From the NCBI GenBank assembly GCA_000381605.1, contig KB906758.1:434001-498000 (forward strand): 64,000 nt of DNA, written 5' to 3'. Under the pieces are notes generated by a model, which was not told the origin of the DNA, ran no database searches, and worked only from the letters and a program-made list of their open reading frames with translations. Position numbers and translations under genes: made by a program. Origin of the DNA: Acidobacteriaceae bacterium KBS 89. GTDB taxonomy: Bacteria > Acidobacteriota > Terriglobia > Terriglobales > Acidobacteriaceae. Of this stretch, positions 3,928 through 19,680 are shown piece by piece (position 1 is the first letter of the stretch; every line of letters begins with the position of its first letter).

Positions 3928-5685
3928 TTGAAGAAACTCTTATTAGTCGCAGTGCTTGCAGCTCTAGGTGCGGTCGTGGGATGCAGTGATGCGCAGCTTC
4001 CCTATCTCACAGCGATCCAGGTAAACCCTGGGACTCCGTCCGTCGCAGCAGGACGCACCCAACAATTTACCGCGATGGGAACCTTCAGCAATAGTCAAAC
4101 GCGGGATATCAGCAGTCTCGTGAAGTGGACTTCGTCGACGGCGCCCGTCAGCACGATCAACGCAGCCGGCCTCGCACAAACCTACAGCCAAGGCTCTTCT
4201 ACAATTACGGCGAGCTTCACCAGTCCCGCCGCTGGCACGGTCACTGGCACCGCAACGTTCAATGTTGCTGCGCCTGCCCTGCTCTCGATTGGTGTCACTG
4301 GAGCCGTCGCTGTCATCGCGAGCCCCAGCTCCAAAGGAACCACTGTAGCCAAAGGCACTGGCCGCCAATTCCAGGCTTACGGTCTCTACAGCGACGGCGG
4401 AGTGCGTTTGCTATCAAACGTCACGTGGGCTTCAACTCCGGCAACGGTCGCAACGATCACCAACACGGGACGCGCGACCAGCATCAATGCAGGAACAGCC
4501 ACGATTACGGCAACCGATCCGGCCTCGGCTATTTCCGGCAACACTCAGCTGGTTGTAACCAACGCAACCATAGCGAGTATCGTGATCTATCCGCGCGCCG
4601 GGGTGACCATCGCTCCACTTACCCGTCAGCCCTTCTTTGCCCTGGGGGTGTTCAGCGACAATACGCAACAAGACATTACTGCAGATGCGAACTGGGTCAG
4701 CACGAACGTCGCGGCAGCAACTGTTTCTAATACCAGTCCGAAGGGAGTTGCCACCGGCGTGGCTGTAGGCGCGACGGTGCTGCAGGCTTCTTTCCTCGGT
4801 ACGACAGGACAAGCTGCGCTCGGCGTAACTGCAGCTTCGCTAACGTCCATCACGCTCACCCCGGGAACGACGCCCACTGGAGTTGCGACCGGCTCGACAC
4901 TTCTGATTAATGCGGTTGGCACGTTTAGCGATGGGTCAAAGCAGCCCATCAATCTGGCCACGGCGTGGAGCGTCACTCCATCCAACGGCTCGATAGCAAC
5001 AGTGGATCAAACTGGACTCGTGACAGGGGTCGCAGCCGGATCGGCTACAGTGACAGCGAAGTTCGGTACGATCACCACGAACGCAGTGATCAATGTCCAA
5101 GCGGTAAAGTCAATTGCGGTCGGACCAGCTACGCCCATAGTGAATCCAAGTACTCTCAGCATCGCACAAGCGACCGCGTCGCAGTTTATCGCGACGGCGA
5201 CTCTGACGGATGGGAGCACTCAGGACATCTCGAACTCTGCCACCTGGGTCGCGATCTCGCCGCCAGCGGTCTCGGGGACGGGGCCAGTAGCGACAATTTC
5301 CGATACGCTCGGCTCATCGGGATGGGCAACGGGCAACGCTCCAGGGACAGCCGTAATCGCAGCGGTATTCGGCGGCCAGTCCAATCTGTCGAGCGTAACC
5401 GTGACCAACGCAACCCTTAGGACACTTGCGATCACACCGACTGGCAATGTGCACGTTGTTTTTGGTGGCACGCAGCAATACCAGGCCACTGGGACCTTCA
5501 GCGATTCGACAACGCAGAACCTCACCAATCAGGTGACCTGGAATTCTTCGGCTCCAACGGTTGCCGTAATGAGTCTTACCGGTTTAGCTACCAACACAGG
5601 GCCAGGGACGACGAACGTGAGTGCCACGAGCAATATCACCACCCCAGCCACGACCAGTCCGGCAGTGGTTTTCTCCAACCCCTGA
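3928..5685 (+). CDS. Lipoprotein made of bacterial Ig-like (BIG2) repeats
   Basis: A 585-residue surface or periplasmic lipoprotein. The start is TTG, with GAGG six bases before it. The signal MKKLLLVAVLAALGAVVGC ends in a lipobox (VVGC, Cys19). The rest is about six BIG2-type Ig-like repeats of roughly 90 residues, each with the pattern 'I.V.PGTPSVAAGRTQQFTA.GTFSN...DI...V.W.SS....A.I...GLA......G...ITA'. Such repeats serve as stalks or adhesins; no enzymatic domain is seen. A perfect 14-bp inverted repeat follows the stop, and an outer-membrane protein gene comes next on the same strand, so the two may work together at the envelope. Confidence 0.88.
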   Translation: MKKLLLVAVLAALGAVVGCSDAQLPYLTAIQVNPGTPSVAAGRTQQFTAMGTFSNSQTRDISSLVKWTSSTAPVSTINAAGLAQTYSQGSSTITASFTSPAAGTVTGTATFNVAAPALLSIGVTGAVAVIASPSSKGTTVAKGTGRQFQAYGLYSDGGVRLLSNVTWASTPATVATITNTGRATSINAGTATITATDPASAISGNTQLVVTNATIASIVIYPRAGVTIAPLTRQPFFALGVFSDNTQQDITADANWVSTNVAAATVSNTSPKGVATGVAVGATVLQASFLGTTGQAALGVTAASLTSITLTPGTTPTGVATGSTLLINAVGTFSDGSKQPINLATAWSVTPSNGSIATVDQTGLVTGVAAGSATVTAKFGTITTNAVINVQAVKSIAVGPATPIVNPSTLSIAQATASQFIATATLTDGSTQDISNSATWVAISPPAVSGTGPVATISDTLGSSGWATGNAPGTAVIAAVFGGQSNLSSVTVTNATLRTLAITPTGNVHVVFGGTQQYQATGTFSDSTTQNLTNQVTWNSSAPTVAVMSLTGLATNTGPGTTNVSATSNITTPATTSPAVVFSNP

Positions 5686-5694
5686 GGTAGAAAC

Positions 5695-5726
5695 GCTCGG
5701 TGGGACTCTTGCGAGTCCCACCGAGC
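5695..5726 (+). terminator. Perfect 14-bp hairpin after the Ig-repeat lipoprotein gene
   Basis: GCTCGGTGGGACTC, loop TTGC, then its exact complement. It starts nine bases after the stop codon. No T-tract follows, so it is either a weak terminator or an mRNA 3'-end stabilising structure. Confidence 0.6.
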
Positions 5727-5819
5727 ATAGAGACCGATGCATTCCGGGGCGTTTTAGCGAGCCCGATCAGTTGATCCAGATTGCAGACCACTCAGAGTTA
5801 CGAGTTATGGAGGGATTGA

Positions 5820-7463
5820 ATGAAACTCAGAACTGCACTTATCTTTGCTGTGGATGTCATGCTTGGCCTGTCAGCATGGTCTCAGGAACATCCCAAATGG
5901 GAGATCCCAATCGACTACTCCTACATGCACTATCAGGGCATCGACTACGAAAGCCGCAACGGCAACTATTTCTTTGGGCAATATTTCAGTCTGGAAGGCG
6001 GCGGCGGCGGAGTCGTGTACAACTTCAGCCACAAGCTTGGAGTTAAGGCTGAATTTCAAGGGTACAAGAGCAACACGAGAGTGGTGATAGTTCCTCCAGG
6101 CAATCCGTTTCTCCCGGCAGGTGGATCAGCGAGTGTCTCGGGAAATCTATTTACCTACATGATCGGGCCCGAATTCGGTATTACCAAAGGTAAATTCCGT
6201 CCATTCGCAGAAGGACTGGTTGGCGGCGCGCACAGCAATGTCTACAAAAATGCCTACAATAATCTGACTTTCACGGGAATCAGTGGAGCGCCTTCCAATA
6301 ACGCATTCGCGGCAGCAGCTGGCCTGGGACTTGATATTGGTCTGAGCCAACGTTTTTCCATCCGTCCGTTTGAGGTGGACTATTTGTATACCAACTTCAG
6401 CAGCGTCCTGACCGCGAACCAGCATAGCTGGCGCTATCTCGGCGGTGTGGTGTTTACCTTTGGTGGCAAACCTCCAATCCCACCGAGTGCGAGCTGCTCT
6501 GCTTCTCCGACGGAGATATGGTCTGGAGCCCCAGTGACAGCTACGGTTAGCACGCAGAACTTCAATCCCAAGCATACGGTTACCTATAGCTGGACTTCCA
6601 GCGGCGGCAGGGCGTCAGGAACCGGGGAAACAGGAAGTGTCGAAACCACCGGTCTTGCCCCGGGGAGCTACAGCGTCTCGGCTACAGCTACCGACACCAA
6701 GGAAAAGAAGAACAACACAGCCACCTGTTCAGCACCCTTCACCGTAAAGCAGCCGCGTGCTCCGACGGCGACTTGCTCGGCCAGCCCACAGACGATAAAG
6801 CCGGGCGATTCGTTCACACTCACGGTCGCTGCAGAGAGCCTGGATGACAGCACGTTGACGTACTCCTATTCCAGCTCCGCGGGCAACATCACCGGTACGG
6901 GAAACAGCGCAACGGAGACGACCACCTCTGCCAATGCGGGCTCCACGATAACAGCAACCGCAAATGTAGTGGATGGTCGTGGCTTGAGCACGAGTTGTTC
7001 CGCAGCGGTAACCGTTCAACCCTTCCCGGTTGTGACCGCTCCTCCAGAAGTCATCTCGGCCGGAGAGTGCAAGTTCAATATGTCCAACAAACCGGGCCGT
7101 GTGGACAATGAGTGCAAGGCGGTTCTGGACGAAGTAGCTCTCCAGGTCCAGCGCCAACCCAACGGCACCGTTGTTGTGGTTGGTTACACCGACGAACAGG
7201 AGACGGTCAAGATGACGCAATTGGCCGGTCAGCGTGCGGTCAATGTGAAGTACTACCTGACATCCGGAGAAGGAGGAGCGGGAATTGACGCTTCGCGCGT
7301 CCAGGTGAAGGCGGGAACGGTCAAGAGCAAGAGTGCAAAGATTTACATCGTTCCCGAAGGTGCCACCTTCGCCGAAGAATCAACCGTGATCGACGAGACG
7401 AAGGTGAAGGGTCAGCCTCGAAATGCTCCTGCGAAGAAGAGCAAGAAGGGAAGCTCGAACTGA
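5820..7463 (+). CDS. Outer-membrane beta-barrel protein with Ig-like repeats and an OmpA C-terminal domain
   Basis: 547 residues; ATG preceded by GGAGGG. A signal peptide (MKLRTALIFAVDVM...SAWSQ) leads to a beta-barrel of about 200 residues (aromatic/Gly alternation, WEIPIDYSYMHYQG ... WRYLGGVVFTFGGKP). Then come two Cys-containing Ig/PKD-like modules (SCSASPTEI, TCSASPQTI; about 225-400). The OmpA-like domain covers about 415-520 (CKFNMSNKPGRVDNECKAVL, VVGYTDE, LAGQRAVNVKYYL), and the protein ends in a basic tail. OmpA domains bind peptidoglycan, so the protein probably ties the outer membrane to the wall. The middle Ig modules between barrel and anchor are less usual. It follows the Ig-repeat lipoprotein by 134 bases. 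Confidence 0.85.
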   Translation: MKLRTALIFAVDVMLGLSAWSQEHPKWEIPIDYSYMHYQGIDYESRNGNYFFGQYFSLEGGGGGVVYNFSHKLGVKAEFQGYKSNTRVVIVPPGNPFLPAGGSASVSGNLFTYMIGPEFGITKGKFRPFAEGLVGGAHSNVYKNAYNNLTFTGISGAPSNNAFAAAAGLGLDIGLSQRFSIRPFEVDYLYTNFSSVLTANQHSWRYLGGVVFTFGGKPPIPPSASCSASPTEIWSGAPVTATVSTQNFNPKHTVTYSWTSSGGRASGTGETGSVETTGLAPGSYSVSATATDTKEKKNNTATCSAPFTVKQPRAPTATCSASPQTIKPGDSFTLTVAAESLDDSTLTYSYSSSAGNITGTGNSATETTTSANAGSTITATANVVDGRGLSTSCSAAVTVQPFPVVTAPPEVISAGECKFNMSNKPGRVDNECKAVLDEVALQVQRQPNGTVVVVGYTDEQETVKMTQLAGQRAVNVKYYLTSGEGGAGIDASRVQVKAGTVKSKSAKIYIVPEGATFAEESTVIDETKVKGQPRNAPAKKSKKGSSN

Positions 7464-7766: not shown

Positions 7767-8162
7767 ATGCGCCTTTACTCCCTACCCGCCATCTTCCTTC
7801 TCTCCGCCTCTACCCTCACCACCCACGCTAATTCACTCCTGGTAGGAACAGATTTGTCACATCCCGTTGGGGGTCCAGTGCTATGCCCCGGCGCGCCCAA
7901 CAATAATGTGCGGATTAGTGCAGTCACTTGTTTCTCCACAGTTGCGATCGATGATGTGAAGGTCGCAATTAGTGAATTTGGGCCCAGTCTGAATTCGGAT
8001 GGTCATTTGACCGTGAATCTGACCGACGGTCTACATGTCTTCGCCGAACCGCTGAACACGTCCGGCGGAACCGTTGGAGATGGCGACAAATTGCGCAAAC
8101 GGAATTCTCAGTCGAATTTACGGACATCGAGTCCAACATTCTTGGATGGGATTTCTACCTGA
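7767..8162 (+). CDS. Exported protein of unknown function, probably frameshifted
   Basis: 131 residues as read. The ATG lies after AGGAGA, and a signal peptide (MRLYSLPAIFLLSASTLTTHA) is clear. It resembles the small exported proteins common in Acidobacteria but has no PEP-CTERM tail. The last 20 residues are Ser/Arg-rich and unlike the rest. From about 8099 another frame reads TEFSVEFTDIESNILGWDFY up to a stop at 8219, which looks more like genuine beta-sheet protein. I infer a one- or two-base indel near 8092-8100, so the gene may be inactive or the true product longer. Function unknown. Confidence 0.5.
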   Translation: MRLYSLPAIFLLSASTLTTHANSLLVGTDLSHPVGGPVLCPGAPNNNVRISAVTCFSTVAIDDVKVAISEFGPSLNSDGHLTVNLTDGLHVFAEPLNTSGGTVGDGDKLRKRNSQSNLRTSSPTFLDGIST

Positions 8163-8265: not shown

Positions 8266-11200
8266 ATGAACATTACAGTTGCGCCACGGCTTCTAATTAA
8301 GTCCTCCCAGAGGCTTGCGCCTAAAAACGGCAGGTTCGCCATCGGTGGAAACAGTGTCGAGTTGCGTGAGCTTTGCCCCAATGAAGGACAATCGGCAGTT
8401 CACGGTGCCGCGCCTGGAAGCCGCTGGTATCTGGCCGCAACAGGCGACAGCGCGGCGTCTTTCGCGGAGATGTGGAATCTAGCCCATGAGACGGCGAGGA
8501 GCACACAGGCTTACGTTGAACCCGACATCGGTCGTCAATGGGAGTACGAGAATAAAGTCACAGGGGCAATTGGAGCAGCGCCTGGCGAGACATGCTCCTA
8601 TGATCCGCAGTCGAAGGATTTCCCCCAGGGGAGTGGTTTCGCATGGCACCTAGACCTTTCACAATTGAGAGACGCGCGCAAAGCTGTCGAAGATAGCCGG
8701 GCACGCGTCCGTATCGGAATCCTGGACACGGGTCTGGACTTCAACCACCAGGCCGCTCCCGCAAACATACTCAAGAATCTGCAGCGAAACTTTGTCGACG
8801 ACGGACGGCCTGTGAACGACGCCTCAGACCCTTATGAACGCGGACCCTTTAGAAATCCCGGCCACGGGACGGGCACCATCGGCCTCCTGGCGGGACGGCG
8901 CCTGGCCGACATGGCGCAACCAGGACAGAACGGCGATTACCTGGGTGGCGCTCCACTGGCGGAGATACTGCCTGTGCGAATCTCGCCTGGCGTTGTCCTT
9001 TTATTCACAAGCGCATTTGCCGCTGGACTGGACTATCTGATCGCTCCTGGAGGCGATGCAAACGAACGTGTCGATGTTCTTTCGATGAGCATGGGAGGCG
9101 TGCCCTCGAAGGCCTGGGCCGATGTCGTCAACCGGGCATATGAAGCGGGGATCGTTATGGTGACTGCCGCGGGAAACAACTTCCCGCTGACTCCACAGAG
9201 TCTTGTCTACCCAGCGCGATTTCAGAGAGTGATAGCTGCCTGCGGCGTAATGGCGGATGGTAAGCCATACATTCGTGAGAACGTCCCCTTCGGCAAGATG
9301 GCCGGAAACTACGGTCCCGATAGCAGGATGGCTACCGCTCTCGCTGCATACACCCCGAACACCGCCTGGGCTGAGATCAACTGCAGCGCGATCGTTGATA
9401 TGAATGGAGCCGGCACATCTTCTGCGACTCCGCAAATCGCTGCAGCCGCAGCACTCTACCTTCAAAAGTACAAGGGCAAGATGGGCGCTTACGAACCCTA
9501 CGAGAAAGTGGAAGCAGTCCGCAAAGCGCTCTTTGACTCTGCCGACAACTCTGCCAGGGATTCCCACAAGTATTTCGGCAGAGGAATTCTTCGTGCTGCT
9601 GACGCGCTGAAAATAGAACCGCAACGTGGCTTGCCGATGACACTTCCGGATGATGCCGACCTGGGATTCTGGAAGGTACTGTTCGGCCATGGCATCGCCG
9701 CCGCCGGAACGGATTACTCGCAGGAGATGCTTGGCGTTGAGGTCGCGCAACTGTTTCAGATCGATCCAGATGTTGCCCGCTCCATAAAAGATCCCGAAGC
9801 TGCAACAGAGCCAACGCAGGAGTTCTTTGACGCCGTGCTGGGTAGTCCGTTTGCCTCGACAGCATTAAAGAACTCTCTGCAGAACTACAAGCGCACAGCC
9901 GCGGTTCCGGGAGCGAACATGGGGAAGGGACAGCCGATCGAGCGGCCGCGGCACAAGATTATCGAGACTCCACTTCCGAAGACTCGCAGGCTGCGGATCT
10001 ACGCGATCGATCCAAGTCTTTCTTCGAGAACAGAGACCGTCGCAGTAAACGACATAACCATTCCCGTGAAATGGGAAGCAAACCTTAAGCCAGGCCCTAC
10101 GGGAGATTATGTTGAGGTGGTCGATCACGATCCGGCCTCGGGGTGCTTTTACCAGCCCGTAGACCTGAACGATCCTCAGCTGCTTGCATCCGATGGACTC
10201 TCTCTCGATCCAGCTGACCCTCGGTTCCATCAGCAGATGGTTTATGCCGTAGCGATGCGAACGATCGGAAACTTTGAAAAGGCGCTCGGACGTAAGGTTT
10301 TGTGGTCGCCTTCCATACCACCTGGCAGTTCACGCGATGGCACGTTCGTGGAGCGTCTTCGCATCTATCCTCATGCTCTTCGCGCGAAGAATGCTTACTA
10401 CAATCCGGAGAAGAAGGCGCTGTTGTTTGGCTATTTCCCGGCATTAAGCTCCGATCCCGCAAGCATCTACCCCAACGGAATCGTGTTCACGTGTCTTTCA
10501 CACGACATCGTGGCGCATGAAACGACTCACGCGCTGCTCGATGGAATGCACCGCAATCTTTCAGCCGAAGGAACCGTGGACGATCTTGCGTTCCACGAGG
10601 CCTTCGCAGATATCGTAGCGCTCTTCCAGCACTTCTCCCTCCCCGGCGTGCTTCAGTTCGAGATCGCCAGGACGCGCGGCAGTTTCAAGGTGAACAACCT
10701 GCTAGCGGAGATTGGACAGGAATTTGGCGCAGCTACAGGACTCCACGGCGCGCTTCGGAGCGCAATTGGAAGGAAACCTGATCCGACGTTGATTGATAAC
10801 ACGGACGAACCGCATGATCGCGGCTCGCTGCTTGTCGCCGCCGTCTTCGACGCATTTACCGACATCTACCAACGGCGAACTGAAGACCTGCTCCGCCTTG
10901 CCACTGGCGGTACTGGCATCCTCGAACCGGGCGCAATAGCTCCTGACCTTGTGGCCCGACTTGCCGATGAGGCCCGCAAGGCGGCACAGCATGTGCTGAC
11001 AATGTGCATCCGTGCGCTCGACTACTGTCCGCCTGTCGACCTGACGTTTGGCGACTACCTTCGAGCGCTGATGACAGCTGACTTCGAGGTGGTCCCAGAC
11101 GATCGCTTCGCTTATCGCATCGCTTTTGCCGATTCATTCCGTCGATGGGGAATCTATCCACGCCATCTGCAGTCTCTTGCGCCGGAGTCGCTGCGGTGGC

Positions 11201-11811
11201 GTGGACTGCAGTTCGATGCGTCTGCAGAGGTTCTAAAAAAAGTCCTGTTGATCGCTCGCGAATTTGCAAGCAAGACGAGGTATCTCTCCGAACTCAATGA
11301 GTACGAGCCCGGAAAGCCTATTAAAAAAGATACGCCCCCGCGGGAGCGCATCTTTGTCTTCTCAAGAATGTGGCGGAAGAAGATTCACAATTCCCTGGCA
11401 CAAGCAATTAAAGATCTAAACGAGGAGGACCGGATGAAGCTCGGGATGGACCTCGGCCTAGATTTCTCAACTGGCCGCGAGCACTTTGAATTGCACGTCC
11501 TACGTGTCTCCGAAAAGATCAGCCCTGACAATGAAATCCAATGCAGTCTCATTCTTCAAATTCTCCAGAGCAGGCAGGAGATGATTGCCGGTAACGCGGT
11601 ACGTTTCAAAGGCGGCGCCACGCTTATCGTCGATGAGACGACTCTCGCGGTAAAGTACTCGATCCTGAAGGGCATTGCGAACCAGGAGAGGCTCCAGCAA
11701 CTGGAAAACTCCTTTGCGAGCTCCTCTACCCTACGGCAGATCTACTTCAGCAACTCATTATTGACCGGAAGCGGGGAACGCTTCGCTATCCTTCACAGTT
11801 CGGAGAAATGA
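8266..11811 (+). CDS. Fusion of a subtilisin-like (S8) and a thermolysin-like (M4) peptidase
   Basis: 1181 residues with no signal peptide or membrane segment, so probably cytosolic. Residues about 1-110 look like a prodomain or adaptor (...HETARSTQAYVEPDI). The S8 domain spans about 145-450 with the whole triad: Asp154 (GILDTGLD), His200 (GHGTGTIGLLAG), Ser385 (GTSSATPQ), and the oxyanion Asn in TAAGNN. Residues about 580-900 hold a gluzincin domain: H751-E752-T-T-H755 with downstream E778 and D782 (HEAFADI), the HExxH...ExxxD arrangement of M4 peptidases. The last about 280 residues are unassigned alpha/beta sequence. Its stop overlaps the start region of the MBL-fold gene that follows, so the two are co-translated. 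Two peptidase classes in one intracellular chain are rare; no known family matches the full layout to my knowledge. Confidence 0.88.
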   Translation: MNITVAPRLLIKSSQRLAPKNGRFAIGGNSVELRELCPNEGQSAVHGAAPGSRWYLAATGDSAASFAEMWNLAHETARSTQAYVEPDIGRQWEYENKVTGAIGAAPGETCSYDPQSKDFPQGSGFAWHLDLSQLRDARKAVEDSRARVRIGILDTGLDFNHQAAPANILKNLQRNFVDDGRPVNDASDPYERGPFRNPGHGTGTIGLLAGRRLADMAQPGQNGDYLGGAPLAEILPVRISPGVVLLFTSAFAAGLDYLIAPGGDANERVDVLSMSMGGVPSKAWADVVNRAYEAGIVMVTAAGNNFPLTPQSLVYPARFQRVIAACGVMADGKPYIRENVPFGKMAGNYGPDSRMATALAAYTPNTAWAEINCSAIVDMNGAGTSSATPQIAAAAALYLQKYKGKMGAYEPYEKVEAVRKALFDSADNSARDSHKYFGRGILRAADALKIEPQRGLPMTLPDDADLGFWKVLFGHGIAAAGTDYSQEMLGVEVAQLFQIDPDVARSIKDPEAATEPTQEFFDAVLGSPFASTALKNSLQNYKRTAAVPGANMGKGQPIERPRHKIIETPLPKTRRLRIYAIDPSLSSRTETVAVNDITIPVKWEANLKPGPTGDYVEVVDHDPASGCFYQPVDLNDPQLLASDGLSLDPADPRFHQQMVYAVAMRTIGNFEKALGRKVLWSPSIPPGSSRDGTFVERLRIYPHALRAKNAYYNPEKKALLFGYFPALSSDPASIYPNGIVFTCLSHDIVAHETTHALLDGMHRNLSAEGTVDDLAFHEAFADIVALFQHFSLPGVLQFEIARTRGSFKVNNLLAEIGQEFGAATGLHGALRSAIGRKPDPTLIDNTDEPHDRGSLLVAAVFDAFTDIYQRRTEDLLRLATGGTGILEPGAIAPDLVARLADEARKAAQHVLTMCIRALDYCPPVDLTFGDYLRALMTADFEVVPDDRFAYRIAFADSFRRWGIYPRHLQSLAPESLRWRGLQFDASAEVLKKVLLIAREFASKTRYLSELNEYEPGKPIKKDTPPRERIFVFSRMWRKKIHNSLAQAIKDLNEEDRMKLGMDLGLDFSTGREHFELHVLRVSEKISPDNEIQCSLILQILQSRQEMIAGNAVRFKGGATLIVDETTLAVKYSILKGIANQERLQQLENSFASSSTLRQIYFSNSLLTGSGERFAILHSSEK

Positions 11812-11813
11812 TC

Positions 11814-13313
11814 ATGGCTACGAAGAAGGCAGCATCCACGCTAACGAGAGCTCGAAAGACTACAACGACTAGACGTGTTAAAAGCAGCAATGCAGCCACG
11901 TCACGTTCGGACTGGAAAGTTCGAATCCGAATGTATCGCAAGTGGCTTGGCGACTGTTTCCTTCTGACCTTCCGTAACGGAGCCAAGGAGGAGCACATTC
12001 TGATCGATTGTGGTGCGCTGTCTGGAACGCCTGCGGGCAAAGCAACGATAAGAGCAGCCGCTGAAGATATTAGGACCACCACGGATGGTGCGCTCCGTGC
12101 GCTCGTCGTAACGCATGAACATTGGGACCATGTCTCGGGTTTCTCTGACGCGGCCGATATCTTCGAAGACAAGTTCAAGATCGACGAGGTGTGGGCCGCA
12201 TGGACTGAGGATCCCAACCAAACCGTGGCAAATGAAAAGAAAAAGCAGCGGCTGAACCAATTGGCGGCAATCGAGGCTGGCTTGCAGCACTGGAACAAGC
12301 CCGGCAGCACAGAGGAACAGCAGCAGATGGGTGCTGCGGTTACAGCTCTGCTCGACTTCATGCCACCTGGAGGTCTCGCCGCTTTCTCTGACGGTACAAA
12401 CACTGCCATGAAGACCGCTCTTGGCCTGGGCAAGCTGCAGTTTCTTGAGCCCGGCGACATCCTCACAAAATCATGGCTACCAGGAATCCAGGTCTTCGTG
12501 CTTGGGCCGCCGAAGGATATCAAGGCGTTGCGGAACACGACCGGCAACGAGGACACCGACATGTATGCACTTTCGCTTGTCGCGGCAAGCGATGCCAGTC
12601 TTACCCAGGCATTCTCTGCCGCAGCCAGAGGCCAGCTTCCTGACTCAGACGTTCAAGACACGTACCGCCCATTTGACCGCTACCTGCAGTGGGACGAAGC
12701 GGTATGGGAGGATCAGAGCCAGCCATGGCACAGTCTTAGCATATCTTATGCTGAGGAGAAAGATCGGCGCGTCGACAACGACTGGTTGAACTCGGTCGCG
12801 GAGCTCGCATTGCAGTTGGACAGCTACACCAACAACACGAGCCTTGTTCTCGCATTTCAGTTTGAGGATAGCGGCGACGTCCTTCTGTTCGTCGGAGATG
12901 CACAGATTGGAAACTGGCTCTCCTGGTCGAACGTCAAATTCAAGGGCAAGACGACGGTCTCCGATCTTCTCGCGAAGACCATCTTCTATAAAGTTGGTCA
13001 TCACGGCAGCCACAATGCCACCCTAAAGACTGGCGGTCTGGAAGTCATGCAATCTCCTCGACTAGTCGCTTCCATTCCGGTCGATCAAGAGTTCGCTCAT
13101 CGTCCCAAGGGTGGCTGCCCAAATGGCTGGGACATGCCAGCAGGGCCCTTGCTGAAGGCAATCACAGAGAAGACTAAGGGTCGGATCCTGCGAGGCGACT
13201 CTGACTTTCCACAAGGAGCAAAGCAGCCTTCGAGGCTAAATGACCGCGAGTGGAAGGACTTTCTGAACTCAGTCAATGTCGAGGAAAACTACATCGAATA
13301 CTTCGTCTCATGA
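11814..13313 (+). CDS. MBL-fold metallohydrolase (ComEC/Rec2-like) paired with the S8-M4 protease
   Basis: 499 residues. I chose ATG 11814 because GGAGA lies seven bases before it; an ATG at 11808 overlaps the previous stop (ATGA) but has no room for a ribosome site. After a basic N-terminus (about 35 residues rich in Lys/Arg/Thr), the metallo-beta-lactamase fold begins with LLTF...EEHILIDCG; the metal motif is H101-E-H103-W-D105-H106 and a later GHHGSHNATL supplies another His. This is the pattern of MBL proteins related to the DNA-internalisation protein ComEC, here without membrane domains. The substrate could be a nucleotide or nucleic acid. Tight coupling to the S8-M4 gene suggests one two-part system. 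Confidence 0.87.
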   Translation: MATKKAASTLTRARKTTTTRRVKSSNAATSRSDWKVRIRMYRKWLGDCFLLTFRNGAKEEHILIDCGALSGTPAGKATIRAAAEDIRTTTDGALRALVVTHEHWDHVSGFSDAADIFEDKFKIDEVWAAWTEDPNQTVANEKKKQRLNQLAAIEAGLQHWNKPGSTEEQQQMGAAVTALLDFMPPGGLAAFSDGTNTAMKTALGLGKLQFLEPGDILTKSWLPGIQVFVLGPPKDIKALRNTTGNEDTDMYALSLVAASDASLTQAFSAAARGQLPDSDVQDTYRPFDRYLQWDEAVWEDQSQPWHSLSISYAEEKDRRVDNDWLNSVAELALQLDSYTNNTSLVLAFQFEDSGDVLLFVGDAQIGNWLSWSNVKFKGKTTVSDLLAKTIFYKVGHHGSHNATLKTGGLEVMQSPRLVASIPVDQEFAHRPKGGCPNGWDMPAGPLLKAITEKTKGRILRGDSDFPQGAKQPSRLNDREWKDFLNSVNVEENYIEYFVS

Positions 13314-13654
13314 GCAAGGCTGCATGCGCGTTAGTGCATCAACATTTCTGTAGTTGTACGTGTGGGAAGGGGTTCTCATCATCAATGAGAACGGTTCCCA
13401 GACTGTCAGACGTAAGGCAGTGCATGCTTGCGAACCATGCAGATCAAGCAGGACCGAGCGATCGAGCGCAAAGTCCAGTGAGATGATCCCATCGAAAACC
13501 GGACGAAGTCTGACAATGATTGTCGGCGCCATGGGGCAGTTGACCCAGAACTCGCAGTTTTGAGGGTGGTCCCCTGACCAGATCTGCGCAAAACGCCCAA
13601 TGATATGAACGATGCGCCGCCGAGTTAAAAACATCGTCCTTGCGCCTAATCTCC
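13314..13654. other. Intergenic region after the S8-M4/MBL unit
   Basis: No gene recognised in 341 bases. It contains a perfect 8-bp inverted repeat (GTTCTCAT, loop CATCA, ATGAGAAC) at 13372-13392 without a T-tract, possibly a weak terminator for the protease/MBL unit. The remainder looks like unconstrained or decayed sequence. Confidence 0.4.
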
Positions 13655-14524
13655 TTATTTCACCAACCCTTGCGCGAACGCCTCGATCGTCGTCTGCCCG
13701 TAGAAAGTTTCGGTTCCCGAATTGCCGAAGTGAATCCAGCCTGAGTTGAAACTCTTCACCATCTCGATGTAGAGCCCGGTGCGGTCGGCTGGCATGCCCA
13801 TACCCTCGAGAACGCTCTGCCAGACTGCCTCGGGCAGTTGCACGGCCTTCACCTCGCGACACAGCGCCCTGCCGAACGCGGCAGCCGCTTCAAGTAAGTC
13901 TGTTCCACCCTGTGGACCGTCCACCTCCAGCACCCGCTCTCCCGTCCAGGTTTCCTGTAGCACCTTGGCGCCCGCCAATCCGATGTCTCGCGAGGCCACC
14001 AACGGAAATTTTCTCTCGAGCGGCGCATAAAAGAAGGGCATCTCACCCGTCGCGCGTATGTGGTCCATCGCTCCCAGCCAGTTTTCCATGAAACTGCCCG
14101 CGCGCAGATACGCAACAGGGATCGGAAGCGTGCGTGTCGCCTGCTCCATCAGGTGCGTCGATGTGATCAGCCCTAGCCCACTCGGTTGCTCCGAACCGAT
14201 GGATGAAAGAAAGACGGCCTTGCCGGGCTTCGCCTGTTCAAGCGCTCCACGGATCGCTGCGATCGTGCGCTTCTGATCCGGTAGCCCGGGAGCCGGCGCA
14301 AAGTCCGGTGGAATCATTGCGAACACACCCTCTGCACCCGCGAAGGCGTTTGCGAGTGCGGCCGCGTCGTCGTAGGCCGACTGCACCAGTTCCACACCTC
14401 TGTCGACCCAAGCTTTCGCCTTCTCCGGATTGCGCACCACGCCGCGCACTGCCTTGCCCGCCGCGAGCAAATTCTCCGCTACCGCCCCACCAACGTTCCC
14501 CGTAATTCCCATGACTGTGAACAT
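13655..14524 (-). CDS. NmrA/SDR-type NAD(P)-binding oxidoreductase
   Basis: 289 residues from the ATG at 14524, which has AGGAGG eight bases upstream; a GTG at 14533 is too close to that site. The N-terminus MFTVMGITGNVGGAV carries the GxxGxxG nucleotide-binding signature of atypical short-chain dehydrogenases (NmrA, quinone-reductase-2-like). FLSSIGSEQPSG replaces the usual YxxxK region, so it may bind NADP as a sensor or reduce quinones. It is divergent from a TetR regulator 92 bases away, with an 18-bp palindrome between them, so it is very probably the regulator's target and may answer electrophile or quinone stress. Confidence 0.87.
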   Translation of the reverse strand: MFTVMGITGNVGGAVAENLLAAGKAVRGVVRNPEKAKAWVDRGVELVQSAYDDAAALANAFAGAEGVFAMIPPDFAPAPGLPDQKRTIAAIRGALEQAKPGKAVFLSSIGSEQPSGLGLITSTHLMEQATRTLPIPVAYLRAGSFMENWLGAMDHIRATGEMPFFYAPLERKFPLVASRDIGLAGAKVLQETWTGERVLEVDGPQGGTDLLEAAAAFGRALCREVKAVQLPEAVWQSVLEGMGMPADRTGLYIEMVKSFNSGWIHFGNSGTETFYGQTTIEAFAQGLVK

Positions 14525-14539
14525 TCCGTTCACCTCCTA

Positions 14540-14557
14540 TACAAGTAGATACTTATA
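14540..14557. promoter_or_regulatory. Probable TetR operator between the SDR and TetR genes
   Basis: TACAAGTA-GA-TACTTATA: two 8-base half-sites with one mismatch around a 2-base spacer. It lies directly upstream of the SDR gene's ribosome site (reverse strand) and inside the divergent promoter region. A second inverted repeat, CAAGC-TTTT-GCTTG, is at 14572-14585, next to the TetR start. Position and symmetry fit a TetR dimer site; binding itself is inferred. Confidence 0.6.
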
Positions 14558-14616
14558 TCAATCAAAAGATGCAAGCTTTTGCTTGTATTTCCACTTTCCC
14601 TGCGAAGATATGAGGT

Positions 14617-15246
14617 GTGGCCGTCTTCAATCCAAACCGAAAGCGCAACGCGCGAGGCGAGCAGCGCCAGCAAGATCTCCTCCGCGCCGCCGCCGCGGTC
14701 TTCGGCCGCCTTGGTTACCACGGGACCACCACAAACGCGATCGCGACGGAAGCGGGCGTATCTCCGGCCACACTCTACCAGTTTTTCCCCAATAAGGAGG
14801 CCATAGCCAGCGCACTCGCCTCGATGTACGCTCGCGAAATGGCCGAAGCAGAACGAGCAATCGACTCCGAAGGCCGCTTGAGCTTCACAGAAGCCGTCGG
14901 TGAGCTGATTGATGTGTGCATGAGTTTCAACCTGAGGCGACCCGAGTTCCACACCCTGGTAGTCGACGCCCCGCTGTCAGCTAGCGCCCGGGAAGACAAG
15001 CATGCTCTTGGTCAGGTTTTCGTCGACTTCATCACAGTGCGCCTCCGGCGCGAGCTACCGACGCTTTCGCGCTCCGAAGCGACCCACCACGGACAGGTAG
15101 CCCTCATGATCTTCCGCGGTATTCTCGACGAGCTCGCTGCCGCCCCACCTCGCGTCCGTGCGCGCCTGCACCAGGCAATGCGCGATGCTATTCTTCGCTA
15201 CCTCGACCCTGTGCTCATTGAAACGAAAGCGGGACCGCGCAGTTAG
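14617..15246 (+). CDS. TetR/AcrR-family transcriptional regulator
   Basis: 209 residues, GTG start preceded by GAGGT. An Arg-rich lead (NPNRKRNARGEQRQQ) precedes the TetR HTH at about 20-65 (TTTNAIATEAGVSPATLYQF, then FPNKEAI). The C-terminal helical half, which binds the ligand, is variable as usual. It is transcribed away from the SDR gene and probably represses both genes through the palindrome at 14540-14557; the inducer is unknown. Confidence 0.92.
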   Translation: MAVFNPNRKRNARGEQRQQDLLRAAAAVFGRLGYHGTTTNAIATEAGVSPATLYQFFPNKEAIASALASMYAREMAEAERAIDSEGRLSFTEAVGELIDVCMSFNLRRPEFHTLVVDAPLSASAREDKHALGQVFVDFITVRLRRELPTLSRSEATHHGQVALMIFRGILDELAAAPPRVRARLHQAMRDAILRYLDPVLIETKAGPRS

Positions 15247-15365
15247 AAGCGGATGGATACGATTAGCCGCTTATCGGGAGCGATCCGATTGCGCTGAGAA
15301 TGTGGTTTGCCGTTCACAGAATTCTCGAGGCTGGTCCTACTCTCACTCTATCGCCGGATAACCAG

Positions 15366-15761
15366 TTAGGATCGATGTGCGAACGCGGCAGACGGACCAA
15401 CGGTTGGATCGGCCTCATCTCCGAGGTCCATAGCTGCGATGAGACCGCTCTTCACGGTGAACACGTGTAGAACCTCGCTGTCCGAGAGAACATCACCTTG
15501 AAGGCTCTTGACGAGTTGGTGCACCTTGACGCGGGTTCTGCCTCCGTTTTCCTGGGTCATTGCAAGCGGTTCGACATGGGGATCGAACTCACCCCATTGT
15601 CGAGTCCAATAGCCGCGGATCTCTTCTTTTCCAATAACCTTGCCGCCCTCCGAAGCCTTGGGCCAGCTCACGTCGTGCGTCATCAGTGCTAATGCACCGT
15701 CGATGTCGCGTTTGTTGAATGCGGAGTACGCCTGCTCAATAATGGTCCTGGTGTCTGCCAT
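15366..15761 (-). CDS. SnoaL/NTF2-like protein
   Basis: 131 residues with the cone-shaped NTF2 fold signature: an N-terminal helix (IIEQAYSAFNKRDIDGALALM), then THDVSWPKASEGG, a tryptophan-rich hinge (EEIRGYWTRQWGEF) and antiparallel strands ending in HVFTVKSGLI. AGGAGA lies upstream of the ATG. Members act as small-molecule isomerases, polyketide cyclases or binding proteins; no specific activity can be assigned. It is convergent with the TetR gene. Confidence 0.8.
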   Translation of the reverse strand: MADTRTIIEQAYSAFNKRDIDGALALMTHDVSWPKASEGGKVIGKEEIRGYWTRQWGEFDPHVEPLAMTQENGGRTRVKVHQLVKSLQGDVLSDSEVLHVFTVKSGLIAAMDLGDEADPTVGPSAAFAHRS

Positions 15762-16046
15762 TCATTCTCCTCTAACGCCTGCCAAGCACTCGATTCTCAT
15801 TATCCCGCCAATCGGGGAAGCGCATTCCACATGGACGAGTAGTCGGGTTATCGGAAATTTCATCCAGCGGCCATTCGGAAGCCCCAGTTCCCGAAAAATT
15901 CCGTTTTTCGTGCTTAACCTATCGTTCTCATAACACCGAGAGGGGATTTACCAAGCTGAGAGACGGGGTGTGAAATACGAGGGCGAAAGGTACTCAGTTA
16001 GATGCGGCGGGAAATTACACATTCCCAATCCGAAGATTAACAGGGT

Positions 16047-16634
16047 ATGAATACGCATATTGCTGGAATACCCAAGGCCGGGGGTACGGATATGCCATCG
16101 ACTCAAGATTTTGAGGATTTGTATGGTGTTACGGAAGAACGAGCTTTTAGCTTCTGGGCGTCTCATCTTCACGAAACGATAGGAAGTGATGAGTGGTCCA
16201 GGATCCGCGATTCCACTGGGGTTTATCTTGCAAGCGTGCTTGGTCATTTTTGCCTGCAGTCGATCGATCGGGCAGATGTCCTTTCTCCGGATTACAGCCC
16301 GAGCGAGCTGGAGTTCCGGCAGTTTGCGGACCTGACCCAGATCGCAGAGATGATGATGCAGCAGCTTACCAGCGCGAAGAACCCACTGTGGATGGAGTCG
16401 GCCGGTGCGCACATACTTCTTTATGCCGGCTTCTTTCAAAACCAGAACAAGGACCGGCACAACATTGAATTCTATTCAGCGATGGGCAGAGAGTGCTATC
16501 TGATGGCGGCAGTAGGAAAGAGAGAGAGAACCATGAAGCTGATGGCGGCAGGCTTTCGTCAATACCTCTTCCATTTGGCCAACCTCCATCGAAATCTGCA
16601 GGAGAGCAGATATCTGATCAGGCCGGTGAACTAG
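16047..16634 (+). CDS. Protein of unknown function, alpha-helical
   Basis: 195 residues with no family I recognise. Mostly helical, with FEDLYGVTEERAFSFWASHL near the start and Met/Gln-rich helices (TQIAEMMMQQLTS), FFQNQNKDRHNIEFYSAMGR and YLMAAVGKRERTMKLM later. No signal peptide or membrane segment. ATG 16047 is weakly supported (AGGG upstream); ATG 16092 is an alternative. Its stop codon overlaps that of the convergent VOC gene. Confidence 0.65.
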   Translation: MNTHIAGIPKAGGTDMPSTQDFEDLYGVTEERAFSFWASHLHETIGSDEWSRIRDSTGVYLASVLGHFCLQSIDRADVLSPDYSPSELEFRQFADLTQIAEMMMQQLTSAKNPLWMESAGAHILLYAGFFQNQNKDRHNIEFYSAMGRECYLMAAVGKRERTMKLMAAGFRQYLFHLANLHRNLQESRYLIRPVN

Positions 16635-17017
16635 CTTCCGCTGACGGGACCTGATTCCTGTTCGGGATCCTTCCGATAGGGGAAGAACAGCTGGTTGCCG
16701 TCGGGGTCTTCGATAATCATGGTGTCATAACCCCACCAGCCATCCCTGATCGGCGCGCCACGGTTCTCGAATTCGGTTCTAAGCGTCTTTAGCGGCTCCA
16801 GGTCGATCGAGATGAAGACGCGGCTGCGGCCGGTCTTTTCGGGCTGCTGGCAGTTGAGGATGATTTCACAATCCTCACGGTTGACCTGACCGACGAGGAT
16901 CTTCCCTTCCTCCTCGTAGCGGAACCCCTGGGTGAAGCCGAGCTTTTCGGTGTAGAAGGCGATTGACCGCTCGACACTTTCGACGAAGAAAACAGGACGT
17001 GAGTACCAGACGTTCAT
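16631..17017 (-). CDS. VOC-superfamily (glyoxalase/bleomycin-resistance-like) protein
   Basis: 128 residues with one pair of beta-alpha-beta-beta-beta modules: VFFVESVERSIAFYTEKLGF, then DCEIILNCQQPEKTG and the C-terminal strand IIEDPDGNQLFFPYR. Family members bind a metal and an antibiotic or small electrophile, or act as isomerases and dioxygenases; Glu in IIEDPDGN is the usual last ligand. Substrate unknown. Stops overlap with the convergent gene at 16047-16634. Confidence 0.85.
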   Translation of the reverse strand: MNVWYSRPVFFVESVERSIAFYTEKLGFTQGFRYEEEGKILVGQVNREDCEIILNCQQPEKTGRSRVFISIDLEPLKTLRTEFENRGAPIRDGWWGYDTMIIEDPDGNQLFFPYRKDPEQESGPVSGS

Positions 17018-17149
17018 CCAATGGCTCCCGGCGGCGCCGCGATGATTATCATAGCCGGAAAGGTTAAACGCTATGCCCGGCGGCCAGCGTTCTCTGTGGA
17101 TTGAAGGTGACTCCGCTGTCTGGTCAGGCGGAGGGTGATGGGTTCGGCC

Positions 17150-17155
17150 TATAAT
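17150..17155 (+). promoter_or_regulatory. TATAAT -10 element placed for a leaderless rel transcript
   Basis: An exact TATAAT ends five bases before the ATG at 17161, so transcription would begin at or next to the start codon. No ribosome site and no good -35 element are visible upstream. It may also be a chance match, in which case the true rel start is further downstream. Confidence 0.4.
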
Positions 17156-17160
17156 GTCCT

Positions 17161-19680
17161 ATGGCAATCGCTCATCCGGCCTCTTCGGAGGCTGGCCCGC
17201 AGCCAGAGTCGAACAAAAAGCCGAAGAACCAACCGGAAACCCAAGTCAGTGCAGGGGCAGAGCTGGAAGCGGCTCCTCCCGTCGCGGCTTCGCCGGTGGT
17301 GTCGGATGCGATCTCTCATGGAAAACGGACGAAGCAAGTTGATCCCGCTGCGGGGCCGGTGGATGCGGGTTCGGCCGACTCGCAGCTGGTAATCGCGGGG
17401 GTGGACGAGGCTGCTGAGCTCTCGGAGTCGTCGGCCAGCCATCTTGCGGGTAGCTCGGCCAGGGATATTCGGTCGGTGGATGCAAAGTTTCAGAGGCTGC
17501 TGGAGACTGTGCACGCGAATCGGCCCGCGGATGATCTGGATGTTATTCGCAAGGCGTGGGCGTTTTGTTTGCTGCAGCACGAGGGACAGAAGAGGGCCAG
17601 CGGGGAGCCTTACATCATCCATCCGCTGGAGGTAGGGCAGGTACTGGCTGAGTTGAAGATGGACTCTACGGCGATTGCGGCGGGGTTGCTGCATGACGCG
17701 GTGGAAGATACAGATGTTACTTCGGCTGAGATAGCGAAGCGGTTTGGAGACCAGGTGGCGCACATCGTTGAGGGTGTGACGAAGCTGGAGAAGATCAAGT
17801 TTGCCAATCGCGAAGATCATCAGGCGGAGAACATTCGCAAGATGCTGCTGGCGATGGTGACGGATGTTCGCGTGGTCATCATCAAGCTGGCGGACCGGCT
17901 GCACAATATGCGGACGCTGGAGCATTTGAAGCCGGAGAAGCAGCAGAAGATTGCGCGGGAGACGCTGGATATTTACGCTCCGCTGGCGCACCGGCTGGGC
18001 ATGGGCAAACTGCGCGGCGAGTTGGAGGATTTGGCGTTCCGGTACACCGATCCGTATGCGTACGAGCAGGTGTCGACTGAGGTGGATTCGCTGCGTGGGG
18101 CGGGCGAGGAGTTTTTGCAGAAGATTGTGAAGCAGCTTGAGGCGAAGCTGAAGGAGTTCAAGATTCAGGGGCGGGTGGAGTCGCGAATCAAGCGGCTGTA
18201 TTCGATTCAGCAGAAGCTGCAGGACCAGAAGATTCCTGTGGACCAAGTGTATGACCTGCTGGCGATTCGGGTGATTTGTAATTCAGTGCAGGATTGCTAT
18301 GCGCTGTTGGGGTTGCTGCATTCGATCTGGCGGCCGGTGCCGGGGAGGATCAAGGACTTCATTGCTATGCCGCGGCCGAATCTTTATCAGTCGCTGCATA
18401 CGACGCTGATTGCTGAGGGCGGGCATCAGTTCGAGGTGCAGATTCGGACGGAGGATATGCATCGCGTCGCCGAGGAGGGGATTGCGGCGCACTGGAAGTA
18501 CAAGGCCTCCGACAATGTGAGCGCCAAGGACGAGCAGCGACTGGCGTGGGTGAGGCAGTTGATGGAATGGCAGCGGGAGATGACCGATCCCAATGAGTTC
18601 ATGTCGACGCTGAAGATTGATCTGTACCCTGAGGAGGTTTATACCTTCACTCCGAAGGGCAAGGTTGTTGTTCTGCCGAAGGACGGGAGCCCGATCGATT
18701 TTGCGTATGCGATCCACACTGAGGTGGGCAATACGACGGTTGGGGCCAAGGTGAATGGGCGGATCGTTCCGCTGCGGACGAAGCTTCGCAATGGCGATAT
18801 TGTTGAGATTTCGACGCAGGCGGGGCATGCTCCGAGCCGCGACTGGTTGAGTTTTACGAAGAGCTCGAGAGCGCGGAACAAGATCAAGCACTGGCTGAAT
18901 GAGCACCAACGCGAGCGGGCGATCGAGATTGGCAGGAAGCTGCTGGATCGTGAGGCGAGGAAGTACAAGCTGTCGCTGGGTAAGTATGGTGAGGCGGACT
19001 ACGACAAGGTCGCCAGTGAGTATGGGCTGGGAACGCAGGCAGAGCTTCTAGCCGGGGTGGGGTTTGGGAAGTTTTCTGCGCGGCAGGTGTTGAACAAGCT
19101 GGAGCCCGGGTCGACGATGACGGCGGAGCCGGCGGTGCCGGAGAGTGGGATCGGCAATACGCTGGGGCAGATGTCGGAGGCGGTGAAGCGGGTCTTCTTT
19201 GGGAAGGGCTCGGAGTCGCTGCAGGTAGAAGGGCAGGACGATCTGCTGGTGTATCGGGCGCGCTGTTGTAACCCAATCCGTGGTGAAGAGATTGTTGGGT
19301 ATGTGACAAGGGGCAAGGGTGTGGCGGTGCATGCGCGGAGCTGCCCGAATGTGCAAAATTTGCTGTATGAGTCGGATAGGCGGATCCAGGTGGAGTGGTC
19401 GCCGTCGCCTACGGAGCCGGGTAGTACGAAGCCGCAGACGTATCCGGTGAAGCTGACGGTGATTTGCGATGACAGGGCGGGGCTGCTGAAGGAGTTTACG
19501 GCGATCATTGCGGATGATGGAACGAATATTCGGAGTGTGGACACGAAGCCGACGCCTGAGGGAACGATGGTGGTGGACTTCGTTGTGGAGACGGTGGATG
19601 TGCGGCACCTGAATAAACTGGTGCAAAACCTGCGAAAGGTTCCTGGGGTGCGGGATGTACAGCGGGTACAGAAGATCTGA
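17161..19680 (+). CDS. rel: Bifunctional (p)ppGpp synthetase/hydrolase (Rel/SpoT)
   Basis: Makes and degrades (p)ppGpp, the stringent-response alarmone. 839 residues as called; the first about 100 are Ala/Pro/Ser-rich and outside the family. The HD hydrolase domain follows with H178-D179...E182-D183 in HDAVEDT, so hydrolysis should be active. The synthetase domain has VPGRIKDFIAM and NLYQSLHTT; the RxKD-type motif is that of bifunctional Rel proteins. After it come TGS (YTFTPKGKVVVLPKDGSPID), a helical/zinc-finger region with YRARCCNPI, and a C-terminal ACT domain. The start is uncertain: in-frame TAA is at 17152, and ATG 17161 has no ribosome site but a TATAAT just ahead. The trp/aro run follows 223 bases later. 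Confidence 0.93.
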   Translation: MAIAHPASSEAGPQPESNKKPKNQPETQVSAGAELEAAPPVAASPVVSDAISHGKRTKQVDPAAGPVDAGSADSQLVIAGVDEAAELSESSASHLAGSSARDIRSVDAKFQRLLETVHANRPADDLDVIRKAWAFCLLQHEGQKRASGEPYIIHPLEVGQVLAELKMDSTAIAAGLLHDAVEDTDVTSAEIAKRFGDQVAHIVEGVTKLEKIKFANREDHQAENIRKMLLAMVTDVRVVIIKLADRLHNMRTLEHLKPEKQQKIARETLDIYAPLAHRLGMGKLRGELEDLAFRYTDPYAYEQVSTEVDSLRGAGEEFLQKIVKQLEAKLKEFKIQGRVESRIKRLYSIQQKLQDQKIPVDQVYDLLAIRVICNSVQDCYALLGLLHSIWRPVPGRIKDFIAMPRPNLYQSLHTTLIAEGGHQFEVQIRTEDMHRVAEEGIAAHWKYKASDNVSAKDEQRLAWVRQLMEWQREMTDPNEFMSTLKIDLYPEEVYTFTPKGKVVVLPKDGSPIDFAYAIHTEVGNTTVGAKVNGRIVPLRTKLRNGDIVEISTQAGHAPSRDWLSFTKSSRARNKIKHWLNEHQRERAIEIGRKLLDREARKYKLSLGKYGEADYDKVASEYGLGTQAELLAGVGFGKFSARQVLNKLEPGSTMTAEPAVPESGIGNTLGQMSEAVKRVFFGKGSESLQVEGQDDLLVYRARCCNPIRGEEIVGYVTRGKGVAVHARSCPNVQNLLYESDRRIQVEWSPSPTEPGSTKPQTYPVKLTVICDDRAGLLKEFTAIIADDGTNIRSVDTKPTPEGTMVVDFVVETVDVRHLNKLVQNLRKVPGVRDVQRVQKI

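Follow-up and report, generated by a model that had tools for sequence, protein, structure and literature searches.

What does a single protein with two complete peptidase active sites of different classes do, and how does it relate to the metallo-beta-lactamase (MBL)-fold hydrolase whose gene overlaps its own? The question is raised by a two-gene unit in a stretch of 64,000 nucleotides (hereafter the window; contig KB906758.1 of GCA_000381605.1, positions 434,001 to 498,000) from Acidobacteriaceae bacterium KBS 89, a soil bacterium with a genome of 6.0 Mb. An earlier sequence-only reading had seen here a candidate undescribed pair, a fusion of a subtilisin-like (S8) and an M4-like peptidase coupled to an MBL enzyme, acting as a proteolytic cascade in defence or self-killing. 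A proteolysis-triggered effector is indeed the most economical reading, and we cast it, with moderate confidence, as a protease-gated nuclease system, in which the MBL protein would be opened by its M4-like partner to kill or arrest the infected cell. It probably represents a novel form of bacterial self-destruct defence set off by a protease. The first gene and its parts are:

8266..11811, + strand: S8-M4 double peptidase gene, 1181 amino acids (open reading frame; Pfam S8; conservation of both active sites)
8278..8589, + strand: propeptide-like N-terminal domain, residues 5 to ~108, edge approximate (pro-Tk-subtilisin alignment)
8635..9624, + strand: S8 subtilisin catalytic domain, residues 124-453, with D154, H200 and S385 (Pfam, structure match, conservation)
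9904..9966, + strand: linker, residues 547-567, with a predicted local distance difference test score (pLDDT) <50, directly before the M4-like part
9973..11205, + strand: divergent thermolysin-like (M4/gluzincin) domain, residues ~570-980, with HExxH at 751-755 and Glu778
11215..11808, + strand: C-terminal alpha+beta domain, residues 984-1181 (secondary structure of the model)
11808..11811, + strand: ATGA overlap of start and stop codons, 4 nucleotides (sequence)

Both peptidase sites claimed by the sequence-only reading are present on one chain and are conserved. Across 82 aligned rows (the window and 81 homologous loci) the triad D154, H200 and S385 and the zinc-site residues H751, E752, H755 and E778 are identical in all 82, and D782 is kept in 81, the remaining row being gapped. 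The subtilisin half belongs to the S8 family by both its Asp-His-Ser triad and its fold, with a Pfam S8 match over residues 148-434 (83 bits against a cut-off of 21.8). In the AlphaFold2 model of the whole protein (mean pLDDT 87, predicted template modelling score 0.58), for which the best Foldseek match has E 9e-15, residues 5-453 align to pro-Tk-subtilisin with its propeptide included (2z2z; Z 35.5, root-mean-square deviation 3.0, 350 aligned residues by VIA-align, whose matches comprised S8 chains alone and so speak to neither the M4-like nor the C-terminal domain). Since alignments to pro-forms of Tk-subtilisin begin at residue 5-6 and those to mature forms at 109-124, the N-terminal ~110 residues are propeptide-like, and the S8 part looks like a zymogen in the model. 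It shares this fold and N-terminal propeptide-like domain with pro-Tk-subtilisin and the intracellular subtilisins but, unlike them, is joined to a metallopeptidase on one chain and linked with an MBL gene. The hydrophobicity of both N-termini is low (maximal mean Kyte-Doolittle value over 12 residues 0.86 for the S8-M4 protein and 0.63 for the MBL protein), in agreement with the cytosolic type, lacking a signal peptide, that had been proposed.

The metallopeptidase half is far more divergent. The HExxH..E motif is invariant in an alignment of 25 M4-like proteins; in the window protein no Pfam family, M4 included, matches over the HExxH/Glu778/Asp782 site, and the profile of the 25 finds thermolysin with E 0.06, across the HExxH..E stretch only. 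Because just four of the 25 match Pfam M4 at E<0.1 (best 0.002) and one matches any PADLOC model at that threshold (best 0.016), Pfam and PADLOC annotation largely overlooks these proteins. The low-confidence linker before this domain is a possible point of separation of the two peptidases, where the chain may be cut, and the C-terminal domain, to which some relatives with an M4-like part only show weak similarity, is a candidate sensor or oligomerisation domain.

The second gene, whose overlap with the first and HxHxDH motif had been recognised correctly, would be translationally coupled to it via the ATGA overlap; a scan for sigma-70 promoters and terminators gave no more matches than in shuffled sequence. 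Its features are:

11808..13313, + strand: ComEC-type MBL gene, 501 amino acids, a candidate gated pro-nuclease (Pfam, ComEC fold match, PADLOC LmuA)
11808..11915, + strand: basic, mostly low-confidence tail, residues 1-36 (block pLDDT 46-52 over residues 1-30)
12114..12131, + strand: HxHxDH metal site, residues 103-108
12348..12377, + strand: putative gating loop 1, residues 181-190, with near-invariant F184 (block pLDDT 54)
12558..12677, + strand: putative gating loop 2, residues 251-290, with near-invariant P288-F289 (block pLDDT 41-58)
12999..13010, + strand: second metal-site motif HHGS, residues 398-401

Its product matches Pfam Lactamase_B (30.5 bits against a cut-off of 22.7); of 62 aligned rows, 60 retain H103, H105, D107 and H108 and two are gapped there, and H398, H399 and S401 are invariant in the 48-row MBL alignment (A2; alignment A1 holds 57 sequences). 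The best fold match of its model (mean pLDDT 81.5) is the ComEC beta-lactamase-like domain (9ic4, E 1.4e-10), followed by the phosphorylcholine esterase Pce (E 5e-6). The ComEC domain is described as a Mn-dependent nuclease (PMC8579336). By sequence, the protein groups with the defence-system MBL proteins LmuA, RTasMBL and Avs1a: the window copy matches PADLOC LmuA with 1.3e-16 and Avs1a with 1.4e-6, and among 48 MBL members the PADLOC matches at <=1e-5 are LmuA 48, RTasMBL 35, Avs1a 8 and PDC-M48B 5. The NCBIfam Avs1a model gives 41 bits, below its cut-off of 420, and the term '6A-MBL', the name of a weak NCBIfam match, was not met among the best literature matches. The N-terminal tails of 64 MBL proteins are basic, with a median Lys+Arg fraction of 0.225 against 0.108 in the bodies (at least 0.2 in 39/64). 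The MBL gene is split over two frames in five loci (L107, L059, L105, L169 and L193), and L105 has its M4 gene in several as well; these are broken copies, assembly errors or natural breaks.

Two low-confidence insertions of the MBL model are putative gates that would cover the active site and be cut by a protease. Only three of their 50 columns reach 90% conservation, namely F184 (91/96 sequences; 59/64 after dereplication) and P288 and F289 (94/96 each; 63/64 and 62/64); position 186, a proline in the window, is glycine in 85/96 (55/64). In the 26 dereplicated loci lacking S8 these residues persist (F184 21/26, P288 25/26, F289 24/26), and therefore the sequence conservation points to the M4-like peptidase as the cutter of the loops. 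Thermolysin-type enzymes prefer a hydrophobic residue after the cut.

The same two positions recur in related proteins. Aligned with MAFFT, the family has the conserved anchors VWxAW, VLGPP, NNTSL, GDA and KVGHHGS in register with four Avs1a-like proteins and, judged by eye at those anchors, both loops fall in the same two gaps. The four come from a locus with a caspase gene (L206/L195), from positions downstream of a patatin gene (L207) and of an S8 gene (L208), and from a MoxR locus (L162), with the caspase (C14), patatin and S8 genes called by Pfam; a profile alignment of the two groups covers the N-terminal half only. In Tuck et al. (2025; PMC12799240), HamM, Avs1a and CanC carry conserved residues in two disordered insertions that are the protease cut sites; cleavage by trypsin-like proteases, demonstrated for HamM and Avs1a, releases the DNase, and cut-site mutants of Canu lose defence.

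The sequence-only reading expected linkage to the MBL gene to be conserved, and it is. In the 80 best of 477 relatives in GTDB genomes, chosen by similarity to the window protein and hence favouring S8 fusions (all 80 are S8-fused), the MBL gene adjoins in 60 and is absent with room to see it in 14, the remaining six lying within 1.5 kb of a contig end. Evenly drawn genome samples are less biased. In that of the window's phylum, the M4 part occurs in 23/396 genomes and the MBL protein in 12/396; all 12 MBL genomes also carry M4, a co-occurrence with a chance probability of 5e-17 (own genome counted, kinship ignored), and the genes are adjacent in 11, the twelfth (G462) having its M4 gene cut by a contig end and its MBL gene on another contig. 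In Pseudomonadota, M4 occurs in 8/398 genomes and MBL in 5/279, adjacent to M4 in all five, of which one (G474) is the centre genome and not a random draw. Both samples together thus give adjacency in 16/17 MBL genomes. Matches further occur in 4/60 genomes of the genus sample (M4) and in 115 plasmid records, 22 of which, selected for variety, were opened; the MBL gene adjoins in all 22 (in pieces in L169). The loci span Acidobacteriota, Pseudomonadota, Bacteroidota, Deinococcota and Planctomycetota, two (L154 and L196) being distant relatives only, and a scan of viral contigs confirmed at least eight distant loci.

The constant partner of the MBL protein is the M4-like domain, a point on which the earlier idea of an S8-M4 plus MBL pair has to be amended. 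S8 is absent from the M4 frame at 15 of the 21 M4 loci opened in the phylum sample (some frames are cut) and from 17/22 opened plasmid loci. In a tree of 127 M4 rows, made by a quick method with 50 of 124 inner branches weak, M4-only proteins with MBL (30 rows) occupy deep, scattered branches and the S8 rows are nested. The core is a highly divergent, thermolysin-like (M4-type) peptidase plus MBL, with S8 as an N-terminal fusion in some lineages. The S8-MBL combination was rejected as the basic pair, S8 being absent from those 30 rows, and chance juxtaposition of two genes was ruled out by conservation and linkage. The two core proteins also co-evolve: their distances correlate with a Mantel r of 0.921 (n=95), or 0.838 (n=52) after dereplication, with 0/2000 permutations as high, an agreement to which shared whole-genome descent adds. 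Only unsplit MBL frames of 380 amino acids or more entered this test, which left out split or cut frames and the window pair; dereplicated figures are given as many rows are close Mesorhizobium relatives. Four loci are present twice in the set (L056/L139, L058/L191, L065/L141, L099/L107), one of each being kept in the tree.

Taken together, the following sequence of events is envisaged. A trigger, perhaps acting via the C-terminal domain, would render the M4-like peptidase active. The MBL protein, a predicted DNase of the ComEC type that two flexible insertions close to its active site would keep inactive, would then be cut by that peptidase in both loops, with the near-invariant Phe residues as the likeliest cut sites; the freed nuclease would degrade DNA, killing or arresting the infected cell in what would be a form of phage defence. 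In the window's lineage the zymogen-like subtilisin fused at the N-terminus might mature or control the M4 part, or add a second proteolytic weapon; other lineages have an adjoining phospholipase gene (patatin, Tle1-like DUF2235 or PLD) in place of S8 or in addition to it. The MBL protein would accordingly not be the independent second effector that had been supposed, and is better read as a pro-nuclease gated by the protease. A modular two-stage switch, in which the zymogen subtilisin activates the fused metallopeptidase and this in turn opens the gated DNase, is a more specific version that we put forward tentatively, as possible rather than probable; there, the slot beside the M4-MBL core would be filled by S8, patatin, DUF2235, PLD, GMC or a RecF-like ATPase. 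We know of no described immune system that relies on a nuclease gated by a metalloprotease and has two classes of protease acting in series within a single chain. If the gating is real, proteolytic control of one nuclease fold extends to further protease classes, and F184 and F289 are two named residues at which the idea is directly testable.

The neighbourhoods of the core were surveyed in 130 of 134 loci (L107, L108, L191 and L192 being left out, and two duplicate pairs, neither with a partner match, being retained), with patatin, DUF2235 and GMC search seeds taken from loci of the same set. In 16/130 loci a patatin-like gene is found no more than 2 kb from the core, 14 times on its strand; there is no locus in which the nearest one lies at 2-10 kb, although that zone contributed 2.8 times more DNA to the scan. 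DUF2235 genes are found within 2 kb in five loci versus two at 2-10 kb, and GMC oxidoreductases in six versus one. The DUF2235 partner of L161 is a 'T6SS phospholipase effector Tle1-like' protein by Pfam (3e-78), T6SS being the type VI secretion system. Further partners are PLD (L159), RecF-like ATPases (L155 and L163), a peptidoglycan-binding/carboxypeptidase gene after the MBL gene in L087 and a transglutaminase in L037.

Defence-type company is seen on plasmids. In ten of the 20 opened plasmid stretches with annotation (L164 and L172 have none), namely L155-L158, L163, L165, L168, L170, L173 and L175, there is a Hachiman (DUF1837), CBASS, SIR2, ThiF or JAB gene; control stretches of the same plasmids have a defence gene in 1/6 (Shedu, L179). 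At 1e-10, 71 neighbour proteins of six plasmid loci match 147 PADLOC families, and 75 proteins elsewhere on the same plasmids match 32, including Shedu and IetA/IetS. This enrichment is only suggestive, as it counts families and not proteins: 24 of 25 families shown are HamA, HamB or HamC models, from two members each. Truncated genes, part of the transposases and a handful of very short genes are not in these gene sets. The expectation of a defence role finds support in many plasmid loci and none at the window locus, which lies outside any defence island.

Several observations weigh against a protease-gated defence nuclease. The M4 assignment is based on the motif and weak profile scores, and the conserved Phe residues could pack the plug instead of being cut. 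Eleven of the 23 M4 genomes in the phylum sample give no MBL match: S8 is fused to M4 in four of these and missing in three, three more are distant matches, and in one the locus is cut by a contig end. Sixteen S8-M4 rows of the tree lack MBL, so that the double chain is not always accompanied by it; these rows belong to a single 21-row fork (support 85) that also holds four cut rows and one MBL row. Among ten window neighbours no defence-type PADLOC match was found bar a RelA/SpoT-like gene (17161-19680), which matches PDC-S33. A common chromosomal setting with Crp and cytochrome P450 genes, unlike that of a mobile defence unit, recurs in seventeen loci (16 Mesorhizobium, one Hyphomicrobiales). 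The claim of novelty is narrowed by the mention, in PMC12799240, of proteases from 'other diverse families' as partners of nuclease homologues.

These facts lend themselves to other explanations. The chromosomal site common to the 17 loci, next to a regulator gene of the Crp family and one with P450 and weak Dyp-peroxidase matches, the nearby GMC oxidoreductases, the wall hydrolase-type gene of L087 and the defence-free window would all suit a regulated self-lysis or stress module, with proteases, nuclease, lipases and wall hydrolases under host regulators. Its patchy presence in the genus, phylum and Pseudomonadota samples, its carriage on plasmids and its Hachiman and CBASS neighbours render this reading fairly unlikely. 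Another possibility concerns the cutter: S8 might open the MBL nuclease where both occur, the M4 part having another target. Subtilisins accept Pro at P2 and Phe at P1, so the P288-F289 motif suits them, and in L208 an MBL gene is immediately preceded by S8, with M4 absent from that piece. We nevertheless hold this to be quite improbable, as the loop residues are equally kept where S8 is missing and M4, not S8, is present in every sampled MBL genome.

The Pce fold match and the recurrent phospholipase-type genes raise the prospect that the MBL protein is a phosphodiesterase acting on lipids or small substrates, in a membrane-degrading set with patatin, DUF2235 or PLD; with the better ComEC match, the grouping with defence-system MBL proteins and a basic tail that would fit nucleic acid binding, we consider that very unlikely. 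Least credible of all is that the proteins are cargo of an injection apparatus (T6SS or a contractile particle) directed against rivals: the Tle1-like partner of L161 would be in keeping with it, but the 20 annotated plasmid stretches name no T6SS or contractile-particle gene, and a gated nuclease with its own protease needs no export. Homologues of the first gene were also not found to be mainly secreted stand-alone enzymes, an outcome that would have counted against the sequence-only reading. The gated nuclease opened by the M4-like partner remains our preferred reading.

Its mechanistic class is already known, and the description of the unit as undescribed holds only for this protease combination, as far as the literature checked goes. 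Gated MBL pro-nucleases of Hachiman, AVAST and Canu, activated by trypsins or caspases, are the subject of Tuck et al. (2025; PMC12799240), whose main text contains none of the words 'subtilisin', 'metallopeptidase' or 'metalloprotease'; among the matches listed from the open-licence literature, a scope exclusive of bioRxiv preprints, no title or abstract names the combination. The trypsin-linked forms (HamM; Avs1a/Avs1b; Lamassu and DRT variants) likewise have a ComEC-type MBL, an adjacent, co-evolving protease gene and, as in the plasmid loci here, a defence neighbourhood; their two disordered loops with conserved residues lie in the same places as the low-confidence, putative gating loops here. 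They differ in that the protease is a trypsin encoded downstream, whereas here a divergent metallopeptidase, to which a subtilisin is fused in some cases, is encoded upstream; in that the conserved loop residue is Ile rather than Phe; and in their fused sensor (HamA, STAND or SMC), none of which was recognised here. Canu (CanABC), from the same study, has the upstream protease gene and separate downstream gated nuclease gene seen here, but its protease is a caspase and its loop residue Gly, and its Ig-like parts and CanB were not seen in the unit. Membership in Canu was rejected, the upstream protease being S8-M4 with no caspase. The sequence-only reading had set the unit apart from AVAST type I for its protease classes and the lack of an adjacent NTPase; neither a trypsin-like protease nor a STAND NTPase was found among the scanned window neighbours, and AVAST membership was rejected for want of these defining parts and with the MBL protein below the Avs1a cut-off, but the relationship of that protein to Avs1a makes AVAST closer than had been thought. 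Finally, the peptidase/NucA systems of Kaur et al. (2020; PMC7159879) similarly couple several peptidases, sometimes S8, to a nuclease; there, the nuclease is NucA/HNH, the peptidases are mainly trypsin-like and the operon layout is another.

At the window, the unit is flanked by Ig-like and OmpA-type proteins upstream and NmrA, TetR, SnoaL and glyoxalase genes downstream. Upstream lie an OmpA/PKD protein gene (5820-7463), with relatives in 59/60 genus genomes, and, just before the unit, a 131-amino-acid open reading frame (7767-8162) with a hydrophobic, signal-like start by eye and no Pfam match. A search for an empty site, by eye in five genomes, found no clean one: of the flanking genes the OmpA-like one occurs in 59/60 genus genomes and a 195-amino-acid one in 15/60, and in those five genomes the two lie 12-15 kb apart in a different orientation.

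Elsewhere, further arrangements were seen. In the 17 chromosomal loci mentioned above (e.g. L046:4236-8570), a P450/weak Dyp-peroxidase gene of 1408-1455 amino acids lies upstream of S8-M4 on the same strand, in most with a Crp-family gene between them on the opposite strand; one regulator and two P450 genes were scanned with Pfam. An astacin-like metallopeptidase gene stands 3' of the MBL gene in L103 (1989-2864) and L151 (6262-7149), with a divergent gene bearing an H1-like basic tail on the other side (L103:6262-7296, L151:10540-11643). A family of 285-340 amino acids, with hydrophobic stretches by eye and no Pfam match in the one member scanned (L096), is found beside the core in L076, L086, L087, L096, L162, L169 and L171. 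In L195 (G695:C1:77000-96000), positions 8816-17477 combine an M4-MBL pair plus patatin gene with, in the opposite orientation, a caspase gene (Pfam C14) and its Avs1a-like MBL, by sequence apparently two gated-nuclease-type units side by side, one of them Canu-like. In L207 (3-2232) an Avs1a-like MBL gene immediately follows a patatin gene (Pfam), M4 being absent from that piece, and L208 (2-2805), with its S8 gene (Pfam, 142 bits), is possibly an S8-only gated pair. Near the M4-MBL pair of L143, on the other strand, there is a DUF4062-NACHT (STAND-type) gene (11884-15024), a possible sensor. Lastly, two phage records have an M4-like match: MT836994.1, a 9.5-kb human-faecal 'Bacteriophage sp.' (4690-5883; 47% identity over 66% of the query), and LR756511.1, a 595-kb uncultured phage with a distant M4 relative (539332-539892; 30% over 29% of the query).

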